The notes below the pieces were generated by a model. The model was not told where the DNA came from. It ran no database searches and worked only from the letters and a program-made list of their open reading frames with translations. Source: an uncultured Methanobrevibacter sp. (GTDB lineage Archaea > Methanobacteriota > Methanobacteria > Methanobacteriales > Methanobacteriaceae). From it: a DNA stretch of 64,000 nucleotides. Below, one piece after another: positions 11,678 to 34,129 of this stretch. The number at the start of each line of letters is the position of its first letter. The stretch's first letter is position 1. The position numbers and the translations under genes were made by a program. The stretch is from contig NZ_CAMHFP010000007.1 in NCBI RefSeq assembly GCF_946184425.1, positions 1-64,000 of the forward strand, written 5' to 3'.

Positions 11678-11702
11678 TAATCAGAAAACATTCGATAAAA
11701 AC
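11678..11702 (+). repeat. partial CRISPR-like repeat (3' two-thirds)
   Basis: CAGAAAACATTCGATAAAAAC matches the last 20 bases of the 37-base repeat, while the first third is unrecognisable. It interrupts an open frame (11560-11865), with unrelated-looking protein sequence on either side. Confidence 0.6.
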
Positions 11703-13195: not shown

Positions 13196-13232
13196 GTTTT
13201 GAATAATTCCTTAGAAAACATTCGATAAAAAC
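13196..13232 (+). repeat. 37-base CRISPR-like repeat, perfect copy
   Basis: Starts GTTTTGAATAATTCC and ends CATTCGATAAAAAC. The ends form the imperfect inverted pair GTTTT/AAAAC, as in many CRISPR repeats. It lies 323 bases before the next perfect copy in the same orientation. Confidence 0.9.
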
Positions 13233-13300
13233 ATAATGTGTCATCAACACAAAGTCAACAACATTTATGATTAATTCAATGATAAAATTAAAATAGTATA

Positions 13301-13444
13301 TTATATCTCTTCTATTCTTTTTAGGTATTCTTCCAATGAGATTTCACCAGATACTAATTTATGATCTAAATCAAAAACAGCTTGATCATTACAACACCCA
13401 TCACCAAATGGAAAAATAATCTCTTCATCCTCTTGAGAAGTCAT
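13301..13444 (-). CDS. 47-aa acidic small protein inside repeat-bounded segment
   Basis: Start ATG at 13444 with a strong AGGAGG ribosome site seven bases upstream; stop at 13301-13303. The protein begins M-T-S-Q-E-D-E-E, has a G-D-G-C-C-N-D motif, and ends in an amphipathic helix (S-L-E-E-Y-L-K-R-I-E-E-I). Its start codon overlaps the stop of an upstream fragment (ATGA), so it was the second gene of an operon. It is not recognised; a small regulator or antitoxin-like role is possible but unproven. It is the only intact gene in the 323-base piece between two perfect repeats. Confidence 0.6.
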   Translation of the reverse strand: MTSQEDEEIIFPFGDGCCNDQAVFDLDHKLVSGEISLEEYLKRIEEI

Positions 13445-13555
13445 TTTTTAATCCTCCTAAAAGACATATATTTATTTAGTAATTTATTAGATTTATAGTT
13501 ATCCCATATATTATTTGCAGCATTATAATTTTCACTACCTTCATCACGTAATCCC
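13441..13555 (-). pseudogene. gene C-terminus cut off by repeat
   Basis: The minus strand directly beside the repeat encodes about 37 codons (G-L-R-D-E-G-S-E-N-Y-N-A-A-N-N-I-W, ending S-F-R-R-I-K-K) before a TGA that overlaps the next ATG. The reading frame starts at the repeat border with no start codon or ribosome site, so the rest of the gene is missing. The parent protein is not recognised. Confidence 0.6.
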
Positions 13556-13592
13556 GTTTTGAATAATTCCTTAGAAAACATTCGATAAAAAC
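13556..13592 (+). repeat. 37-base CRISPR-like repeat, perfect copy
   Basis: Identical to the copy at 13196 and in the same orientation. It separates a minus-strand gene fragment on its left from a plus-strand coding fragment on its right. Confidence 0.9.
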
Positions 13593-13712
13593 TCTAATAA
13601 CACCAATATTGATGTTACAGATTACAAGCTTAATGAGAACGGAACATTGGACATAGAAGGAATTGCAAGCACAATAAACAAAGACTTGCAGCTTGAGGCT
13701 AATGTTTTCTAA
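13593..13712 (+). pseudogene. short coding fragment between inverted repeat copies
   Basis: About 36 codons run open from the repeat border (S-N-N-T-N-I-D-V-T-D-Y-K-L-N-E-N, then S-T-I-N-K-D-L-Q-L-E-A) and stop inside the inverted partial repeat at 13701-13726. There is no start codon or ribosome site. It reads as an internal piece of an unrecognised gene. Confidence 0.5.
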
Positions 13713-13726
13713 GGAAATGTTCAAAC
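13701..13726 (-). repeat. inverted partial CRISPR-like repeat
   Basis: AATGTTTTCTAAGGAA followed by TGTTCAAAC is the reverse complement of the 5' two-thirds of the repeat, with a few changes. It faces the perfect copy at 13556 across a 108-base piece. Confidence 0.6.
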
Positions 13727-14026
13727 AAAATCTTTTGCTATGGCTATTTATTAAATTTAACTATTTTTAAACAGAATTAAAAATTCAAAACTAACTTTCA
13801 TCAAAAAATTTCAATTCAACAAAGTTTTTGAAAGATTCCCGATAAATGATAAATATATTTAAATAACAAGAAAAACATAAATTTAATTTAATCTATGTAA
13901 TTTATTTTTAGCATTATATAATTCGATAATCTTTTTTTACAACTACACGAAAGTAACATCCGTTGCTTTTATTTTAATTCCATAGGTTTAATTAAATTAA
14001 CGAATAAAATAAGGGGGAAATTAATT
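13727..14026 (+). other. non-coding leader of adhesin gene
   Basis: AT-rich gap holding one copy of a 26-base direct repeat (13808-13833) and the G-run ribosome site (14013-14017) of the following gene. No open frame is seen. Confidence 0.4.
13808..13833 (+). repeat. 26-base direct repeat, left copy
   Basis: ATTTCAATTCAACAAAG plus TTTTTGAAA. The same 26 bases, with one C/T difference, recur at 15817-15842 on the far side of the adhesin gene 14027-15721, so the pair brackets that gene. Confidence 0.6.
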
Positions 14027-16154: not shown

Positions 16155-16191
16155 GTTTTGAATAATTAATTAGAAAACAATCGATAAAAAC
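16155..16191 (+). repeat. 37-base CRISPR-like repeat, three mismatches
   Basis: Same length and orientation as the perfect copies; CC is replaced by AA in the middle and T by A in ACATTCG. It directly adjoins the integrase fragment. Confidence 0.85.
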
Positions 16192-16210
16192 AAAATATGA
16201 TGTTTGAATA

Positions 16211-16234
16211 TTGAAAAAAAAGAAAAAAAGAAAA
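16211..16234 (-). terminator. oligo-T terminator on minus strand
   Basis: Long A-runs on the plus strand (T-runs in the transcript) lie just after the stop of the gene ending at 16239, the usual form of an archaeal terminator. Confidence 0.5.
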
Positions 16235-16238
16235 TGGT

Positions 16239-16895
16239 TTATTCCATATCACCATTTTCAGTATATGGTCGGTTGTTAATTATATCTATCATCCTTTGAC
16301 CATCTGATTGTCCGCCTCTAACAATACCATTATCATCGTACCATACGTTTAATTCTTCATCATAGTATAAATTAGGGCCAGATCCTTCAGAAAGGTTTGT
16401 TGAACTGGATGAACTAGTTGTGCTTGCTGATTGAGATGGGGTATTATATTTTGCAGTACTTGCAGTGGAATTTGCAGTGACTTTTTGGGTTGTTGTTGTG
16501 TTTCCATCTTGGATGTTAATAGTTGTTTTAGCATTACAACCATTGTATTTATTGTTACCTCCATAAGTTACACTTACTTCGTGATTTCCTTTGTCTTCAT
16601 TGTTTAATGAAAGACCAGCTTTACCGCTGTTGTCTGTAATAACGGAGAAATTTTGTTTTTGTCCATTACCAACAAAAGTAATGTTAACAGTTTGGTTTGC
16701 AATCGCATTTCCTTTTGCATCTTTAAGTTCAAATTGCACTATATCCCCATTTTTTAAGTTTGCTTCACTTAAAAAATTGATTTGGGTATTTAGTTTACCA
16801 TCTTGTGTAGTAGCTTGTGGTTGTGTAAACATAAATGCTGCTACAACTGCTATGATGATTACAACTAAAATAGCAATAATTATATTTTTATTCAT
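16239..16895 (-). CDS. membrane-anchored Ig-like protein
   Basis: 218 aa. The N-terminal transmembrane anchor (residues 4-24) starts almost at once, so the rest lies outside the cell. An Ig-like domain (about 33-128) has the pattern L-K-N-G-D-x-V-x-F-x-L-K-D, V-N-I-T-F and T-D-N-S-G-K-A-G-L. A Ser/Thr/Gln linker (130-168) and a Tyr/Trp/Asp-rich tail (170-218) follow. A good AAGGAGG ribosome site precedes the ATG. The same plan occurs in the 130-aa protein at 51888. It probably acts at the cell surface; no catalytic motif is seen. It lies as a complete gene between the repeats at 16155 and 17024. Confidence 0.75.
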   Translation of the reverse strand: MNKNIIIAILVVIIIAVVAAFMFTQPQATTQDGKLNTQINFLSEANLKNGDIVQFELKDAKGNAIANQTVNITFVGNGQKQNFSVITDNSGKAGLSLNNEDKGNHEVSVTYGGNNKYNGCNAKTTINIQDGNTTTTQKVTANSTASTAKYNTPSQSASTTSSSSSTNLSEGSGPNLYYDEELNVWYDDNGIVRGGQSDGQRMIDIINNRPYTENGDME

Positions 16896-17023
16896 ATTTG
16901 ACCTCCTTATTTTAATATTAGATAGATTTAATTAATATATCTTTTTATTATCTATGAAAAAAATTAGAAAATTCTATTGATTTATATAAATTAATAAAAT
17001 AAAGTTATAATTAATTCAATTAT

Positions 17024-17060
17024 GTTTTGAATAATTCCTTAGAAAACATTCGATAAAAAT
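17024..17060 (+). repeat. 37-base CRISPR-like repeat, one mismatch
   Basis: 36 of 37 bases match the perfect copies; only the terminal C is T. The next base starts a DprA coding fragment. Confidence 0.9.
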
Positions 17061-25945: not shown

Positions 25946-26197
25946 ATGATCTGTCCGAGATGCAAAGGCAACATCAAAAAAGATGAAAACTGCGAGAGCT
26001 GCGGTATCTCATATGATGAAGTAATCAGAACAATTCGCCACGACGGGATGAAAAATCTTTTCCTGAAAATAGAAAAGAAAATGCAGAATCATGAGGACAT
26101 TACTGTTGAGGAATCTCTGCTGGCGGTTGAGCTTGTAAACTCATCACTTTTGATTCCTGTAAAAGTTTTGAATAATTCCTTAGAAAACATTCGATAA
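25946..26197 (+). pseudogene. zinc-ribbon protein gene cut off by repeat
   Basis: The N-terminus has a zinc ribbon (C-P-R-C-K, C-E-S-C-G) and an amphipathic helical segment, with AGGAAGTG before the ATG at 25946. Native coding ends at 26164: the last codons (V-L-N-N-S-L-E-N-I-R) are the repeat itself read in frame up to a TAA. The normal C-terminus is therefore missing. It marks the junction between the zinc-ribbon/TPR cluster and the repeat-bounded pieces. Confidence 0.65.
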
Positions 26198-26201
26198 AAA
26201 C
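26165..26201 (+). repeat. 37-base CRISPR-like repeat, perfect copy
   Basis: First of three perfect copies spaced at about 0.7 kb (26165, 26878, 27588), all in one orientation. It truncates the zinc-ribbon gene on its left. Confidence 0.92.
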
Positions 26202-26300
26202 ATGTATATTGATGTGTGGGTGCAGAATTATCTGTCAAAGCTGCCTAAAATAAGAATGAACATGATGTACAAAATTAGAGGTAAATTTGAGAGGTTATGA
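26202..26300 (+). pseudogene. C-terminal gene tail at start of repeat-bounded piece
   Basis: The frame runs open from the repeat for about 32 codons (Y-I-D-V-W-V-Q-N-Y-L-S-K-L-P-K-I) and stops at 26298-26300. The first ATG touches the repeat and has no ribosome site, so this is probably the end of a larger gene that preceded the HNH gene in its source DNA. Confidence 0.45.
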
Positions 26301-26327
26301 TAATGGATGATTATGTAGGTGAGTGAT

Positions 26328-26888
26328 ATGGATCTAGGAGTATTAAAAACAGAATTTGGAAGAGCAAAGGTTAAAAAAGGTTATTATACAATAACTTCTA
26401 AAAAAGAAGGAAATTATAATAAATTACTGCATAGGTTAATTTTTGAAGATTTCTATAAAATTAAACTTCCAAGTCATATTATTATTCACCATGAAGATAG
26501 GAACAAATTAAATAATGAAATATGGAATTTAGTACCGATGACTAATTCAGAACATTTAAAAATCCATAGTAGAAATGAAGATAATGGAATGTATGGTAGG
26601 AAACACAGAAAGAATACTTTAAAACTAATGAGTATATCTCAAAACAATTCTACGGGATTTTTTAGAGTTAATAAAATTACAAGAAATGTTAAACAAGGTT
26701 TTGTATGGGCATACATGTATTATAAAAAAGGTGAAAAACACCAAACTTTTATTTCAAGTGTCAATTTGATGAAAGTAAAAGAAAAAGTTATTGCAAAAGG
26801 ATTGGATTGGTTTGTTATTGATGAAGATATTGCCAAATCTGTTTGTAAAGAGTATGGTTATGATGAAGGAGTTTTGTGTTTTGAATAA
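26328..26888 (+). CDS. HNH homing-type endonuclease, end cut at repeat
   Basis: About 186 aa. The HNH core is visible: H-R-L-I-F-E-D-F-Y, I-I-I-H-H-E-D-R-N-K-L-N-N, then W-N-L-V-P-M-T-N-S-E-H-L-K-I-H. A NUMOD3-like DNA-binding element (G-M-Y-G-R-K-H-R-K-N-T) and an AP2-like C-terminal region follow. ATG at 26328 lies after AGGTGA; a GTG at 26319 is less likely. The stop codon lies inside the next repeat, so the native C-terminus is probably lost by a few residues. Such enzymes are typical of phage and self-splicing elements and may still cut DNA. Confidence 0.75.
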   Translation: MDLGVLKTEFGRAKVKKGYYTITSKKEGNYNKLLHRLIFEDFYKIKLPSHIIIHHEDRNKLNNEIWNLVPMTNSEHLKIHSRNEDNGMYGRKHRKNTLKLMSISQNNSTGFFRVNKITRNVKQGFVWAYMYYKKGEKHQTFISSVNLMKVKEKVIAKGLDWFVIDEDIAKSVCKEYGYDEGVLCFE

Positions 26889-26914
26889 TTCCTTAGAAAA
26901 CATTCGATAAAAAC
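26878..26914 (+). repeat. 37-base CRISPR-like repeat, perfect copy
   Basis: Identical to 26165-26201. It supplies the stop codon for the HNH gene on its left and cuts gene A on its right. Confidence 0.92.
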
Positions 26915-27396
26915 TCTTCAGAATTAATATGAATCACTTCAACATTAGAGTCCATATAATAAGGATTATAATCCATTACTTCTGAAATAATATTGTCTTT
27001 TTCATCTAGTAAAATCTTTTTTTGATATTTTGCATCATATCTTCCAAAGTTTTTATCACGTTTTAAAGGAGTTACCCAGTACTCAATTTTAGCCACATAA
27101 CCATTTGGGAAATTAATAACTCTTTCAAATTCATCACCTATTTTTAAACCTGTAGCTAAAATACTCTTTTCCTTTTCATAAGTTAACTCATCCGGATTAC
27201 TTTCTATAACTTCAGAAATAATATTTCCTTTATCATCTAACAATTGAGATCTTCTCTTACTACCAGAATATCTTTCAAAAGCAGGATAATAATGTCCATC
27301 ATCATAAGATATAACTCCATAATCTATATGAACATGTAAACCTTTAGATAAAATAAAATCTTCTGTCTTTACATCCCCAATTGTTCTAACAACCAT
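26893..27396 (-). pseudogene. gene A: two-repeat protein, C-terminus cut by repeat
   Basis: The frame from ATG 27396 runs about 160 native codons and then continues into the repeat (F-L-S-N-V-F) to a chance stop at 26893. The protein contains two similar units of about 80 residues, recognisable as F-x-R-Y...L-L-D-D-K-G-N-I-I-S-E-V and G-R-Y...L-L-D-E-K-D-N-I-I-S-E-V. Family not recognised. A shorter, frameshifted homologue (27633-27823) stands in the next repeat-bounded piece. Gene B precedes it in the same direction, so both were part of one operon before truncation. Confidence 0.65.
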
Positions 27397-27417
27397 AATA
27401 CCACATGAAAATAACTA

Positions 27418-27587
27418 TCATAGTATATTATTAATATACATATATTTATTTTTATGCATCTGAATTACAAAAGTATTTTCATTAAGAAGTTCCTTAATTG
27501 ATTCAGCAAACAATTCTCCATAATACTTATCTAAATGTTTACTTCTTTCTTCAACACTTACTTTATTATAATTTTCCTTTAATTCAA
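27418..27587 (-). pseudogene. gene B: C-terminal fragment beside repeat
   Basis: About 56 codons (K-L-E-L-K-E-N-Y-N-K-V, L-F-A-E-S-I-K-E-L-L-N-E-N, H-K-N-K-Y-M-Y-I) run out of the repeat at 27588 and end at 27418. Any upstream ATG lies inside the repeat read on this strand. The native N-terminus is missing. A homologous tail occurs at 27869-27984. Confidence 0.6.
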
Positions 27588-27624
27588 GTTTTGAATAATT
27601 CCTTAGAAAACATTCGATAAAAAC
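27588..27624 (+). repeat. 37-base CRISPR-like repeat, perfect copy
   Basis: Third perfect copy of the tandem set, with gene B cut on its left and the homologous A' segment on its right. Confidence 0.92.
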
Positions 27625-27632
27625 AATATTAA

Positions 27633-27823
27633 TCAAAATCTAATTTCTGTAAGGATATTTTTATTCTGATCTAAAAGTTGGGATCTTCTAAGGCTTCCAG
27701 AGTACCTTCCAAAAAAAGGTTCATATACTCTTCCCATATGATACCATAATCAATTCTAACTTGCATCTTATTTGGGAAATCAATTTTTTCAACACGAGCA
27801 TTACTTGGAATAATATAAAACAT
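27633..27823 (-). pseudogene. gene A': frameshifted homologue of gene A
   Basis: ATG at 27823 begins M-F-Y-I-I-P-S-N-A-R and matches gene A around R-I-D-Y-G-I. A one-base shift then brings up E-P-F-F-G-R-Y-S-G-S-L-R-R-S-Q-L-L-D, nearly identical to gene A (R-Y-S-G-S-K-R-R-S-Q-L-L-D). It ends at a TGA a few bases from the repeat, so it is both broken and shortened. Confidence 0.6.
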
Positions 27824-27868
27824 GAGAATATCCTCTTCAAATTTTTAATGTAATATTAGTTCAAAATA

Positions 27869-27984
27869 CTATTTAAATATATATTTCTTTTCATGCAAAT
27901 TTTTAAGTCTAGCATCTTTCATAAGAATTTTAACAGAATCTGCAAAGATTTCAGCAAAAAATCTTTCTTTAACTGTTTCTTTAC
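27869..27984 (-). pseudogene. gene B': C-terminal fragment, homologue of gene B
   Basis: About 38 codons (K-E-T-V-K-E-R-F-F-A-E-I-F-A-D-S-V-K-I-L, H-E-K-K-Y-I-F-K) run out of the degenerate repeat and stop at 27869. They resemble gene B (Y-Y-G-E-L-F-A-E-S-I-K-E-L-L, H-K-N-K-Y-M-Y-I). Together with A' this repeats the B-A arrangement of the neighbouring piece. Confidence 0.6.
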
Positions 27985-28020
27985 CTTTTGAATAATTCTA
28001 ACTAAAACATCAATGAAAAC
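27985..28020 (+). repeat. degenerate CRISPR-like repeat closing the array
   Basis: TTTTGAATAATTC is conserved, then TAACTAAAACAT and a changed end (GAAAAC). It is 36 bases long and in the same orientation as the perfect copies. Confidence 0.65.
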
Positions 28021-28238
28021 AATTATAAAATATAAATAACTTCACTTATTTATTATGCTCAGTAAATATTTTAGACTAGATAAAATAATTTAGACAATCT
28101 ATCTTAAACAATAATATTTTCCCGAAAATTTAATGCTGAATATTGTAAAATTTAGGAAACATTAGTAACTTTACTTCAATCAACTTTATTATGGAGAAAA
28201 AATATAATAATAATAATTAAAAAAATGGAGGAATATAT

Positions 28239-29312: not shown

Positions 29313-29676
29313 TTTTAATAAGAAATACATTAATAGTTTTCATCAGAATCCGGGATTTTTAGCATTTTTTGCTGGTAACTTTTACTATTTCGGATTAAAT
29401 TCCTTTTTTACCATTACCCTTAATATTAACTAATCAATGACAACAATTTACCTTCATCAAATCTTTTGGGATTTTCAACTTTGTTGATTCCAGTAGCAAT
29501 TCTTCCAACGTATTAATAACCTACTTGGTGTAAACATTCTTTTGATTTCTACGTCTTTGAATGTGTGTTGTATATAAAGAAAAAAACATCATATTTTCCC
29601 TAGTTTAAAATTATTTACTCTCCTATTGCAATATCTTTGGAGAGATTATTAAACCAATTAAAATAAATATTATTTC
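29313..29676 (+). other. 364-base gap before cas2 copy 1
   Basis: AT-rich with no convincing frame on either strand. The last bases before the cas2 start (ATTATTTC directly before ATGTATATGAT) are shared with cas2 copy 2, so the duplication reaches slightly upstream of the coding region. Confidence 0.4.
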
Positions 29677-29952
29677 ATGTATATGATAACTTCATTTGAA
29701 TGTAAATTCAAGACTAACCAGGAAAAAATTGAAAAAGTCCTTCAGCATTATGGGCTTAGAAAAATTCAACATACATTATATGTAGGGGAAATGAATAATA
29801 ATGAAAGAGATGATCTTGCGAAAAATATCAGAGAAATTGTCCGTGAAAATGACATTGTATTGATAATGCCTATTTGCCGAAACGGTTATTCCAAAAAAGA
29901 AAGTTTGGGTCGTGAAATCAAATTCAAAAATGACTTGTACAGGGTGTTTTGA
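29677..29952 (+). CDS. cas2: Cas2 (copy 1)
   Basis: 91 aa, ferredoxin-like Cas2 of usual length, beginning M-Y-M-I-T-S-F-E-C-K-F-K-T-N. The position of the conserved Asp after strand 1 holds Glu (S-F-E), where copy 2 has Asp (S-I-D). Other family marks are G-L-R-K-I-Q-H-T-L-Y-V-G-E and V-L-I-M-P-I-C. Cas2 pairs with Cas1 to insert spacers into CRISPR arrays. Its stop overlaps the cas1 start (TGATG). The attached cas1 is truncated, so this copy cannot act alone. Confidence 0.8.
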   Translation: MYMITSFECKFKTNQEKIEKVLQHYGLRKIQHTLYVGEMNNNERDDLAKNIREIVRENDIVLIMPICRNGYSKKESLGREIKFKNDLYRVF

Positions 29953-30164
29953 TGAAGATAGTTATTGACGGATATAACAAGTCCATTCACAAAAAGGATA
30001 ATCAGATTGTCATACATGAAAAGGATAAAATCATTGATTCAATAAAGGCAAGTTCAGTTAATGACATAACCATTACAGGAAAAGGATACATCACCTTCGA
30101 TGCACTTAATTTAATAGCCGAAAACAACATTAAATTTATGGCCATCAATCCAAAAGAATGTTGA
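29952..30164 (+). pseudogene. cas1: truncated Cas1 (copy 1), N-terminal domain only
   Basis: About 70 codons match the N-terminal beta domain of Cas1 (D-G-Y-N-K-S-I-H-K-K-D-N-Q-I-V-I-H-E-K-D, F-D-A-L-N-L-I-A-E-N-N-I-K-F). Compared with copy 2, similarity stops at A-I-N-P-K, near 30155. The entire helical catalytic domain with the Glu/His/Asp metal site is missing. What follows is an unrelated frame, so the gene was cut and joined to other DNA. Confidence 0.75.
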
Positions 30165-30728: not shown

Positions 30729-30765
30729 GTTTTTATCGAATGTTTTCTAAGGAATTATTCAAAAC
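30729..30765 (-). repeat. 37-base CRISPR-like repeat, perfect copy, inverted
   Basis: Exact reverse complement of the other perfect copies, and the only full-length copy on this strand. It lies between the two cas2-cas1 remnants, 0.56 kb after the first. Confidence 0.9.
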
Positions 30766-30856: not shown

Positions 30857-31570
30857 ATGAGTGAATATTTCAAATATGAAAATAAGGATTATGATATTCC
30901 TTTTTTAAACGGGATTCCAGAGCTTACAACTCCCAAGATTATAGTATTAGTTATAGGATTTTTAATCACATTCATAACACCATTTGTTGTTCCTCTAGAA
31001 GGATTTCATATCCAAAAAGCTTTAATAGTCTGTTTTGCAACATTAATTCCTATAATTTATGCTTTGAAAGGTAATCTGTCAATGATTTTTAGAGTTCCAC
31101 AAGTTAAAGACATCAAAATAATAATTTTAGGTCTAATCGGAGTTATGATTTTATCAGCAATAATCAATTTTATTTTAACCGGAAGAATTGGTAACACTGC
31201 AACGGATGCTGCAATGAAGGGTAGTCCGACCGTATTAATAATTGGCTTAATAATCCAACTGGTCGGTGAAGAACTGTTCAAATTCATACCTTTAATATTA
31301 GTCGTTGCATTCACATACAAATCATTAGGACGTAAAAATGCAATAATTGCTGGAATTGTCATTTCACAGTTACTCTTTGCATTGGCGCACATTCCTGCAT
31401 ACGGATTTGACTTAAAATTTTTAATTCTTGCACTGGGCGTGGGCGGCTGTATACTACCGATAACCTACATACATACAAAAAATGTTGCTGTACCATACTT
31501 CATACACTTAATTGAAGATCTAATAGGATTAGTTGTTATGCTTGGAACTGCAGGACTTTTATTTTTCTAG
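30857..31570 (+). CDS. CPBP (CAAX-type) intramembrane protease
   Basis: 237 aa with about seven or eight transmembrane segments. The family motifs are present: G-E-E-L-F-K (paired Glu; residues about 138-143) and L-A-H-I-P-A-Y (His). GGAG precedes the ATG. CPBP proteins cleave within membranes and take part in peptide processing or protection. A paralogue lies at 42812-43504. Substrate unknown. Confidence 0.75.
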   Translation: MSEYFKYENKDYDIPFLNGIPELTTPKIIVLVIGFLITFITPFVVPLEGFHIQKALIVCFATLIPIIYALKGNLSMIFRVPQVKDIKIIILGLIGVMILSAIINFILTGRIGNTATDAAMKGSPTVLIIGLIIQLVGEELFKFIPLILVVAFTYKSLGRKNAIIAGIVISQLLFALAHIPAYGFDLKFLILALGVGGCILPITYIHTKNVAVPYFIHLIEDLIGLVVMLGTAGLLFF

Positions 31571-31676: not shown

Positions 31677-32045
31677 TTAACGACGACCATTTTGGTTTTG
31701 AATAATTACTTCCAAAAGATACGTTTCAAACAGTTCATGACCAATAAGTAAACCAATTTTGTTTTCACTTAGTTTGTACTGCTGCTTTTTAAGATAAACA
31801 TTTTTCCAGTCTGGAGATTCCAGTGTATATGTCAGCTCCCCTCGTGTATTAACTGATATCAGTTTGATATTATATTCAGCCATCAAATCAAGTGCATCAA
31901 ATGTCACATGACCTTTTCCTATAATAGTGATGTCATCAATTTTAGATGCCCTGATTGAATCTATTATTTCGTCTTTTTCATGTATAACAATCTGGTTGTC
32001 CTTTTTGTGAATTGATTTGTTGTATCCTTCTATAATCAGTTTCAT
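31677..32045 (-). pseudogene. cas1: truncated Cas1 (copy 2), ends in a degenerate repeat
   Basis: ATG at 32045, one base after the cas2 stop. The frame covers the Cas1 N-terminal domain and the first helix of the catalytic domain (L-S-E-N-K-I-G-L-L-I-G-H-E). It then reads F-E-T-Y-L-L-E-V-I-I-Q-N, which is the degenerate CRISPR-like repeat at 31695-31731 translated, to a stop at 31677. The metal-binding residues are absent. A third case of a gene cut at this repeat. Confidence 0.8.
31695..31731 (+). repeat. degenerate CRISPR-like repeat cutting cas1 copy 2
   Basis: Exactly 37 bases. The first 13 (GTTTTGAATAATT) are identical to the perfect copies, then CTT, AAAA and the CAAAC-type end are kept; by eye 28 of 37 positions match. 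Confidence 0.7.
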
Positions 32046-32046
32046 T

Positions 32047-32322
32047 TCAATACACCCTGTAGAGTTCATCCCTGAATTGTATTATGCGACCAATGCTAAT
32101 CTTTTTAGAGTAGCAATTCTGACAAATGGGTATTATCAATACACTGTCAGTTTCGCGAACAATTTCAGAAATCTTTTCACCCAATTCTTTTCTTTCATTT
32201 TTGTCAAGATCTCCTGCATATAATGAACTTTGAATCTTTCGAAGTCCGAAACGCTGAAGGATCTTTTCAATATTTTCATGGTTTGTTTTGAATTTGCAAT
32301 CTATGCTGACTATCATGTACAT
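32047..32322 (-). CDS. cas2: Cas2 (copy 2)
   Basis: 91 aa, beginning M-Y-M-I-V-S-I-D-C-K-F-K-T-N with the conserved Asp present, and sharing G-L-R-K-I-Q, V-L-I-I-P-I-C and L-Y-R-V-Y with copy 1. It is probably a competent Cas2, but its cas1 partner is truncated. It is oriented away from copy 1 across the inverted repeat and the CPBP gene. The two pairs are homologous but diverged, so they are not a recent duplication. Confidence 0.82.
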   Translation of the reverse strand: MYMIVSIDCKFKTNHENIEKILQRFGLRKIQSSLYAGDLDKNERKELGEKISEIVRETDSVLIIPICQNCYSKKISIGRIIQFRDELYRVY

Positions 32323-32423
32323 GAAATAATTTTTATTATAACTTCTTGTAAATTTTTTATTTTATAAAATATATGGATCAGATTCGTGTTATGTGGATTA
32401 GAATATGAGGTACCTTAAATAAT

Positions 32424-33046: not shown

Positions 33047-34129
33047 ATGATCGAGGTTAATGAGCTAACAGACTACCTAGATGAATACTTAGAAGAAAAA
33101 CAAGAGGTAAAAAACTTAACTGAAGAAACAATAGAAAAACAAACATTTAATATTTCAAAATTCATTGAATATCTTGAAAATGAAGGGATAGATGAGTTGA
33201 ACAGTAGCAATGTCAAAAAACAGTTAAGACATTATCGTAGATACTGTTTAAAAAAACGTGGGAATAAAAGGACAACAGTTAAAACATATATGATGAATAT
33301 TTTGGAATTCATCAACTCAGAAGATGTTCAAGAAGAAATCCAGCATGATACAATCAAAATGAAGGATATCATTGAGGTTAAAGCTGAAGATCCTGAAACT
33401 GCTAAAAAAAGAATTGAAAAAATCAGCTTAACATGGCAGCAATCCAATTTCTTTTTGGATACGATCAAACAAAGAGGAAATCCAAGAGATTATGCGATTT
33501 GCAGAACTTTCATTGATTCCGGTATGAGGCTAAAGGAACTGGTACTTCTGAACAAGGATGATATTCAGGTTCCAATCGATGAAAAAGGATTTTATGAGCT
33601 GCCGAATGATACCAATGAGTTTATTGAAGTATATCTGCGTGCAGAAACCACTAAAGGAGAATTAAAGGACCGTACAACATTCATTACCTTCGACACGCTG
33701 GTCAGCTTAAATGATATGATAATGGATCGTATCACAAAACTTAGAAAAAACACAAATGATGTTTACAGACCAGTGATTCAAAGAAACAAAGCAGCAGAAG
33801 AAGTAAATCGTGAAGAATTATTTACAAACATTAAAGGTAAACGAATAGGAAAACGTGGAGTGCAGGATATAGTAAAAAAATATGCTCATCTTTCGGATGA
33901 TAGGATAGAATCAGAAAACATTGATTGTCCTGTAAACTATGGAAAAAATGTCAGTGTCCATATCCTCAGACACACCGCATTAAGCCATTATGCTGAAGTA
34001 TTGACTGTTGCTGAAGTTCAAACAATTGCAGGACACTCCAACAGCCAGACAACAGATAAATATATTCATGTTGATAGAGAACAAATGAAACAAAAATTAA
34101 AAGCAAATAATATGAAATTTAATATGTAA
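33047..34129 (+). CDS. tyrosine recombinase (XerC/D or integrase type)
   Basis: 360 aa, complete. An N-terminal SAM-like DNA-binding region (about 1-110) is followed by a catalytic domain with Arg in G-M-R-L-K-E-L (about residue 163), H-I-L-R-H-T (H-x2-R), A-G-H-S-N-S-Q-T-T and the nucleophile Tyr in D-K-Y-I-H-V. All key residues are present. AGGGGG ribosome site. It may resolve chromosome dimers, or integrate and excise the accessory region beside it. It is the only intact DNA recombinase near the repeat-bounded pieces, so it is also a candidate for acting on the repeats; that link is inference. Confidence 0.85.
   Translation: MIEVNELTDYLDEYLEEKQEVKNLTEETIEKQTFNISKFIEYLENEGIDELNSSNVKKQLRHYRRYCLKKRGNKRTTVKTYMMNILEFINSEDVQEEIQHDTIKMKDIIEVKAEDPETAKKRIEKISLTWQQSNFFLDTIKQRGNPRDYAICRTFIDSGMRLKELVLLNKDDIQVPIDEKGFYELPNDTNEFIEVYLRAETTKGELKDRTTFITFDTLVSLNDMIMDRITKLRKNTNDVYRPVIQRNKAAEEVNREELFTNIKGKRIGKRGVQDIVKKYAHLSDDRIESENIDCPVNYGKNVSVHILRHTALSHYAEVLTVAEVQTIAGHSNSQTTDKYIHVDREQMKQKLKANNMKFNM

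Follow-up and report, generated by a model that had tools for sequence, protein, structure and literature searches.

The window, a 64-kb stretch of DNA from a Methanobrevibacter genome, carries six exact copies of a 37-bp repeat together with several variants and half copies, spread over about 20 kb (Table 1). Eight matches with up to three mismatches were found in the window, compared with none in 100 shuffles. The 37-mer has just one loose match in the rest of this genome, on contig 15, and the exact 37-mer had no match in the public genome contigs or viral contigs searched. Across the genus genomes, matches with up to three mismatches were confined to the window genome, because every species has its own version of the repeat. 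An earlier, sequence-only reading had described three identical 37-mers and a degenerate fourth enclosing 676, 673 and 360 bp, and these coordinates were reproduced. The copies that it listed are real, but its inventory was partial, missing those at 13196, 13556, 30729 (reverse strand), 16155, 17024, 31695 and 11683.

Table 1. Repeats, enclosed pieces and neighbouring genes in the 64-kb window
Feature	Position	Strand	Basis or content
Right-hand repeat half, 20/20	11683..11702	+	Sequence match
37-bp repeat, exact	13196..13232	+	Sequence match
323-bp piece	13233..13555	-	5'-truncated toxin-like C-terminus (37 aa) overlapping a complete 47-aa ORF
37-bp repeat, exact	13556..13592	+	Sequence match
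Degenerate repeat, 27/37, opposite strand	13691..13727	-	Sequence match
Repeat, 34/37	16155..16191	+	Sequence match
832-bp piece	16192..17023	-	One complete ORF, 218 aa
Repeat, 36/37	17024..17060	+	Sequence match
37-bp repeat, exact	26165..26201	+	Sequence match
676-bp piece	26202..26877	+	HNH endonuclease gene (PF13392, E 1.6e-8), stop inside the next repeat
37-bp repeat, exact	26878..26914	+	Sequence match
673-bp piece	26915..27587	-	5'-truncated ORF, gene B (about 56 aa), then gene A
37-bp repeat, exact	27588..27624	+	Sequence match
360-bp piece	27625..27984	-	5'-truncated C-terminus, then start of a gene-A-like ORF
Degenerate repeat, 24/37	27985..28021	+	Sequence match
cas2 copy A, 91 aa	29677..29952	+	TIGR01573, 42.9 bits
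cas1 copy A, truncated (about 68 codons left)	29952..30164	+	
37-bp repeat, exact, opposite strand	30729..30765	-	Sequence match
Variant repeat, 29/37	31695..31731	+	At the cas1 copy B break; 36/37 against the G010 and G055 repeats
cas1 copy B, truncated (about 108 codons left)	31722..32045	-	Breaks off within the variant repeat at 31695
cas2 copy B, 91 aa	32047..32322	-	TIGR01573, 49.3 bits
XerA-like tyrosine recombinase	33047..34129	+	Neighbour

Reading frames had been said to break at the repeats, and the HNH, gene A and gene B ORFs do all run into them, with the HNH ORF stopping at 26888, gene A at 26893 and the gene-B ORF reading through 27588-27624. Members of the gene A family also occur in pieces of three other genomes (G017, G002 and G066), and the layout of the 323-bp piece, a toxin-like C-terminus with a 47-aa ORF, is the same as in piece 3 of G008. 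No close donors for the window pieces were detected in the window genome or in the genus genomes searched.

Two mutually inverted cas2-cas1 loci sit between the window array and the XerA-like recombinase gene, which probably does not belong to the system. Each locus has an intact cas2 and a truncated cas1. A Cas1-Cas2-like insertion had been proposed from the letters alone, but cas2 at 29677 (+) and 32322 (-), with truncated cas1 and adjoining the array, had been overlooked. When a leader remnant was sought in the window, nothing but repeats matched. With neither cas1 complete and no leader detected, the window array is probably frozen and would grow no more. The inverted cas2-cas1 copies (29658-30152 and 31845-32341) share about 72-75 % DNA identity, and another genome (G020, locus L050) likewise has two cas2 copies; in both cases the cas locus itself may have been duplicated or captured.

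Intact loci and piece lengths in related genomes

The system is present in about 25 Methanobacteriaceae genomes, with the window as one decayed remnant. The loci compared were 20 regions around xerA in the genus genomes and then the cas1 regions of genus and family; matches to the long-piece Cas1 at 50 % identity or more came from Methanobrevibacter and related genera, including Methanosphaera and Candidatus Methanovirga. Intact relatives have a constant order, in which cas2-cas1 is followed by a leader and then by 37-bp repeats enclosing long pieces. In the main, genus-wide group the distance from the cas1 stop to the first repeat is 195-198 bp; a second group (G066, G007, G002, G030, G095 and G125), whose repeats are different, has 108-114 bp. 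Alignment of the leaders of 19 genomes revealed stretches of conservation, among them paired TGAGGAAAC / GTCCTCA motifs and AAGAAGAAATATAAA, a block rich in A+T that resembles an archaeal promoter and may serve as one.

Repeats across species follow the pattern GTTT..A..GAATGTTTT......AATTATTCAAAAC, with a variable centre and a separate version in each species. They are near-identical inside a genome, differ between genomes and are decayed at the leader-distal end. Runs reach 11 copies at 37/37 with a degenerate distal copy; such direct repeats, 37 bp long and near-identical, fit the 25-50 bp expected of a CRISPR array. Some of the genomes are drafts, but arrays were also seen in single-contig genomes (G002, G004, G007 and G008) and are therefore not assembly artefacts. 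Two genomes (G010 and G055) have arrays and no detectable cas1, which is explained here as loss of an enzyme that the arrays outlive, as in the window. A CAAX-protease-like membrane protein gene lies between repeats at 30857-31570 of the window and has relatives inside the arrays of these two genomes (68 % DNA identity); it is perhaps an old inherited piece.

The 20 arrays yielded 72 pieces of up to 5 kb, of which 53 were well bounded, with both flanking repeats at 34/37 or better (30/31 for G125). These 53 pieces ranged from 204 to 4299 bp with a median of 891 bp and no clustering, in place of the constant short spacers of CRISPR arrays. The near-equal lengths of 676 and 673 bp in the window, with 360 and 323 bp near half of that, had been read as a hint of measured length; this spread rules out a ruler of about 675 bp.

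Ten pieces sit wholly within one reading frame, which indicates that the pieces are arbitrary cuts and not gene cassettes. Complete genes are present in other pieces; one in G048, for example, encodes a type IIG restriction enzyme resembling MmeI. Inserts occur in both orientations, and no clear strand bias among captured genes was apparent by eye. A viperin-like gene (pVip, E 8.6e-26) is located near the distal end of the G002 array (L074 3427-4866).

Donors and turnover of the pieces

Six pieces in two genomes (G002 and G062) copy, over their whole extent, segments that are still present in the same chromosome. For G002, which is assembled as one contig, piece 1 is identical over 483/483 bp to a segment at 684,625, piece 5 matches a segment at 1,382,517 at 498/499, piece 6 matches one at 921,250 at 525/529 and the most distal, piece 11, matches one at 218,753 at 466/524 with six gaps (about 88 %). 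These matches span from repeat edge to repeat edge, and the donors are intact and carry no repeat. Piece 1 of G062, a fragment of a hisH-type GATase, matches its own chromosome at 329 of the first 333 nt (about 99 %) and piece 2 does so at 430/440 (about 98 %). Pieces farther from the leader differ more from their donors, the gradient predicted for addition of new pieces at the leader end. No common motif that could serve as a protospacer-adjacent motif was evident in the six donors.

In methanogen viruses, the region of portal, MuF toxin and immunity genes is the source of many pieces. The methanogen virus Caudoviricetes sp. vir080 has genes for terminase and portal, followed by the MuF gene and a small gene and then by those for head protease and major head protein. 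Pieces of six genomes (G062, G008, G015, G007, G065 and G002) map to this stretch with differing ends. The same viral locus has been captured repeatedly with different boundaries, strands and repeats. A search of the viral contigs for the MuF protein found none; vir080 came from phage records. Exact self donors and vir080 matches place the sources in mobile elements and the host, as for CRISPR spacers. The description of the pieces as random cuts of foreign operons holds for their arbitrary boundaries, but some are copies of host chromosome and others hold complete genes.

Families recurring across genomes are mostly toxin C-termini with a small gene behind each, and one recurrent C-terminus weakly resembles an ADP-ribosyltransferase toxin. 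MuF toxins with immunity genes have been described in temperate phages (PMC5576092). By ORF layout alone, an arrangement of toxin C-terminus plus small gene was found in 16 of 59 pieces, a mild excess over the 10.8 +/- 2.8 of a random-fragment control. Since this excess is mild, selection for immunity genes is treated here as hypothetical.

Comparison of sister species showed that pieces turn over while the locus is kept. In G002 and G007 the flanks on either side, cas1 and the leader are about 95 % identical, yet no piece is in the same place; the only sequence common to the two arrays is a MuF-toxin segment that is 99 % identical, inverted and cut differently. Identity between G026 and G039 is 94.5 % as far as the final base of repeat 1, beyond which the two are unrelated. 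A presence/absence comparison of this kind had been suggested from the window, and in both pairs flank, cas genes and leader are retained and pieces are not. The fixed leader, distal decay, sister-species comparison and gradient of donor divergence all point to the polarity known from CRISPR arrays.

The inserting enzyme and comparison with known systems

The known role of Cas1-Cas2 is the storage of short, fixed-length guides. In the Cas1 tree, one branch with 100/100 support parts all long-piece loci from all ordinary arrays. The long-piece Cas1 matches TIGR00287 with 240 bits and retains the catalytic E163/H227/D239/E242 region. Ordinary arrays across that branch have 36-bp spacers, leaders of about 300-500 bp and, where checked, adjoining type III-A genes (Cas6, Csm4, Csm5 and Csx1). 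The long-piece loci share with this type III-A adaptation module of Methanobacteriaceae homologous Cas1 and Cas2, catalytic residues, 37-bp repeats, a leader, polarity, repeat duplication, and self and viral sources. They differ in their pieces of 204-4299 bp, in leader length and in a Cas1 and Cas2 that form a separate clade, and no effector or crRNA-processing genes were found in the flanking ORFs scanned. One alternative is that these are ordinary CRISPR arrays in which the loss of spacers, or their disruption by insertions, left the repeats far apart; repeat, leader and cas genes are CRISPR-like and the nearest Cas1 relatives belong to ordinary CRISPR loci. This is very unlikely, given that none of the 20 arrays has a 30-40 bp spacer, that all 53 well-bounded pieces exceed 200 bp, that pieces are exact donor copies made in a single step, and that effector genes are missing from the scanned flanks.

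A second alternative assigns insertion to the neighbouring XerA-like tyrosine recombinase, which would insert circular cassettes at the 37-bp sites in the manner of integrons or dif modules. The repeats are built like tyrosine-recombinase sites too, with conserved arms and a variable central 6 bp, which counts against a Cas1-Cas2 reading, and xerA adjoins cas2-cas1 in many genomes. However, no XerA ortholog was detected in G017, G048, G053, G065 or G066, all of which have arrays or an array start, and loci with XerA but without cas1 are mostly repeat-free. Repeat type tracks Cas1 and not XerA sequence: repeats of the M. smithii type are wholly different while XerA is 81-82 % identical. A cassette would bring its own site, yet repeats are the same within and different between genomes, and the pieces are linear copies of intact genes whose donors have no site. 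The only tyrosine recombinase found near the loci is XerA-like and missing from several array genomes, at odds with a role such as that of IntI. XerA is the weaker candidate for the inserting enzyme, and this alternative is unlikely; the idea that some other integrase uses the repeat, which had been left standing beside Cas1-Cas2, is disfavoured on the same grounds.

A transposon or MITE family, or a casposon, with the 37-bp repeat as its ends could account for off-array repeats such as the pairs on contigs 5 and 6 of G062 and the loose match on contig 15 of the window genome. The copies are direct rather than inverted, lie mostly within the cas locus and at a fixed distance from cas1, enclose unrelated DNA with no constant body and differ between species, so that this explanation is extremely improbable. 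Casposons (Cas1-solo) resemble the long-piece loci in that Cas1 inserts gene-scale DNA; there, terminal inverted repeats enclose Cas1, whereas here the repeats are direct, cas1 lies outside the array, Cas2 is present, there is a single leader-repeat insertion locus and no inverted-repeat body moves as a unit.

The window is very probably a decayed Cas1-Cas2 gene-capture array, in which a ruler-less integrase would have taken up gene-scale DNA at the leader-proximal repeat with an integron-like outcome. The sequence evidence for this is that cas2-cas1, leader and array keep a constant order, that the leader has a fixed length, that repeats within arrays are identical, that exact copies of intact chromosomal donors occur, that divergence shows polarity and that content turns over between sister species. 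A dedicated Cas2-Cas1 pair, kin to the CRISPR adaptation module and apparently without the ruler that fixes spacer length, would perform the joining and integrate DNA of roughly 0.2-4 kb beside a leader of fixed length. Each integration would duplicate the first 37-bp repeat, leaving the newest piece nearest the leader. Insertion without a length ruler, as first proposed from the window, is strongly supported by the loci of intact relatives, their pieces of 0.2-4.3 kb and the full-length self donors. The benefit would be gene gain, especially of immunity genes against viral MuF-type polymorphic toxins, and not RNA guides, and the array is possibly a bank of toxin-immunity genes. Conceivably, though at somewhat less than an even chance, the system is an adaptive immune memory at the protein level, in which viral and chromosomal genes banked by a ruler-less Cas1-Cas2 would give heritable immunity against MuF polymorphic toxins, along with other defence genes, in place of RNA guides.

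Like integrons (IntI, attI and attC), the intact loci combine an array of gene-scale inserts with an adjacent integrase gene and a promoter-like leader, and their cargo is varied, including the type IIG restriction enzyme. Unlike in integrons, the integrase would be Cas1-Cas2 and the inserts are arbitrary fragments in both orientations; each integron cassette has its own attC, variable within the array, whereas here repeats are identical within arrays, absent at donors and no part of the cargo. Short sites with conserved arms also flank genes in pdif/Xer modules and archaeal XerA-dif, and a xerA-like gene is near many of the loci, but several array genomes are without XerA, and the type of repeat goes with Cas1. 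The parts (Cas1, Cas2, leader and repeat) are of known kind, and what appears new is cargo size, no adjacent effectors and integron-like outcome taken together. No prior description of Cas1-Cas2 arrays with gene-sized inserts was found in the open full-text papers searched, and priority is not proven.

If this reading is correct, a CRISPR adaptation module would have become, in the gene-storing lineage, a collector of genes akin to an integron; archaea would have a route to gain genes in place, and nature would provide an integrase that puts kilobase DNA into a single site. Comparison of the sister Cas1-Cas2 clades makes the determinants of spacer length testable, and the carriers include common gut methanogens, so that direct tests are feasible.

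Repeat-like sites were also observed alone in intergenic DNA (G000:C15:38283-38319, which is L012 1501-1537, and G054:C25:25849-25886), with the common core ATTAGGAAAGATT; these are possibly XerA/dif sites or off-target insertions. Two exact-repeat pairs lie far from the main array of G062, on contigs 6 and 5 (L218 3486-6991 and L219 3501-7165), where duplicated segments of 3.5 kb, containing adhesin and transposase-like remnants, lie between them. Such off-array repeats may seed recombination elsewhere.
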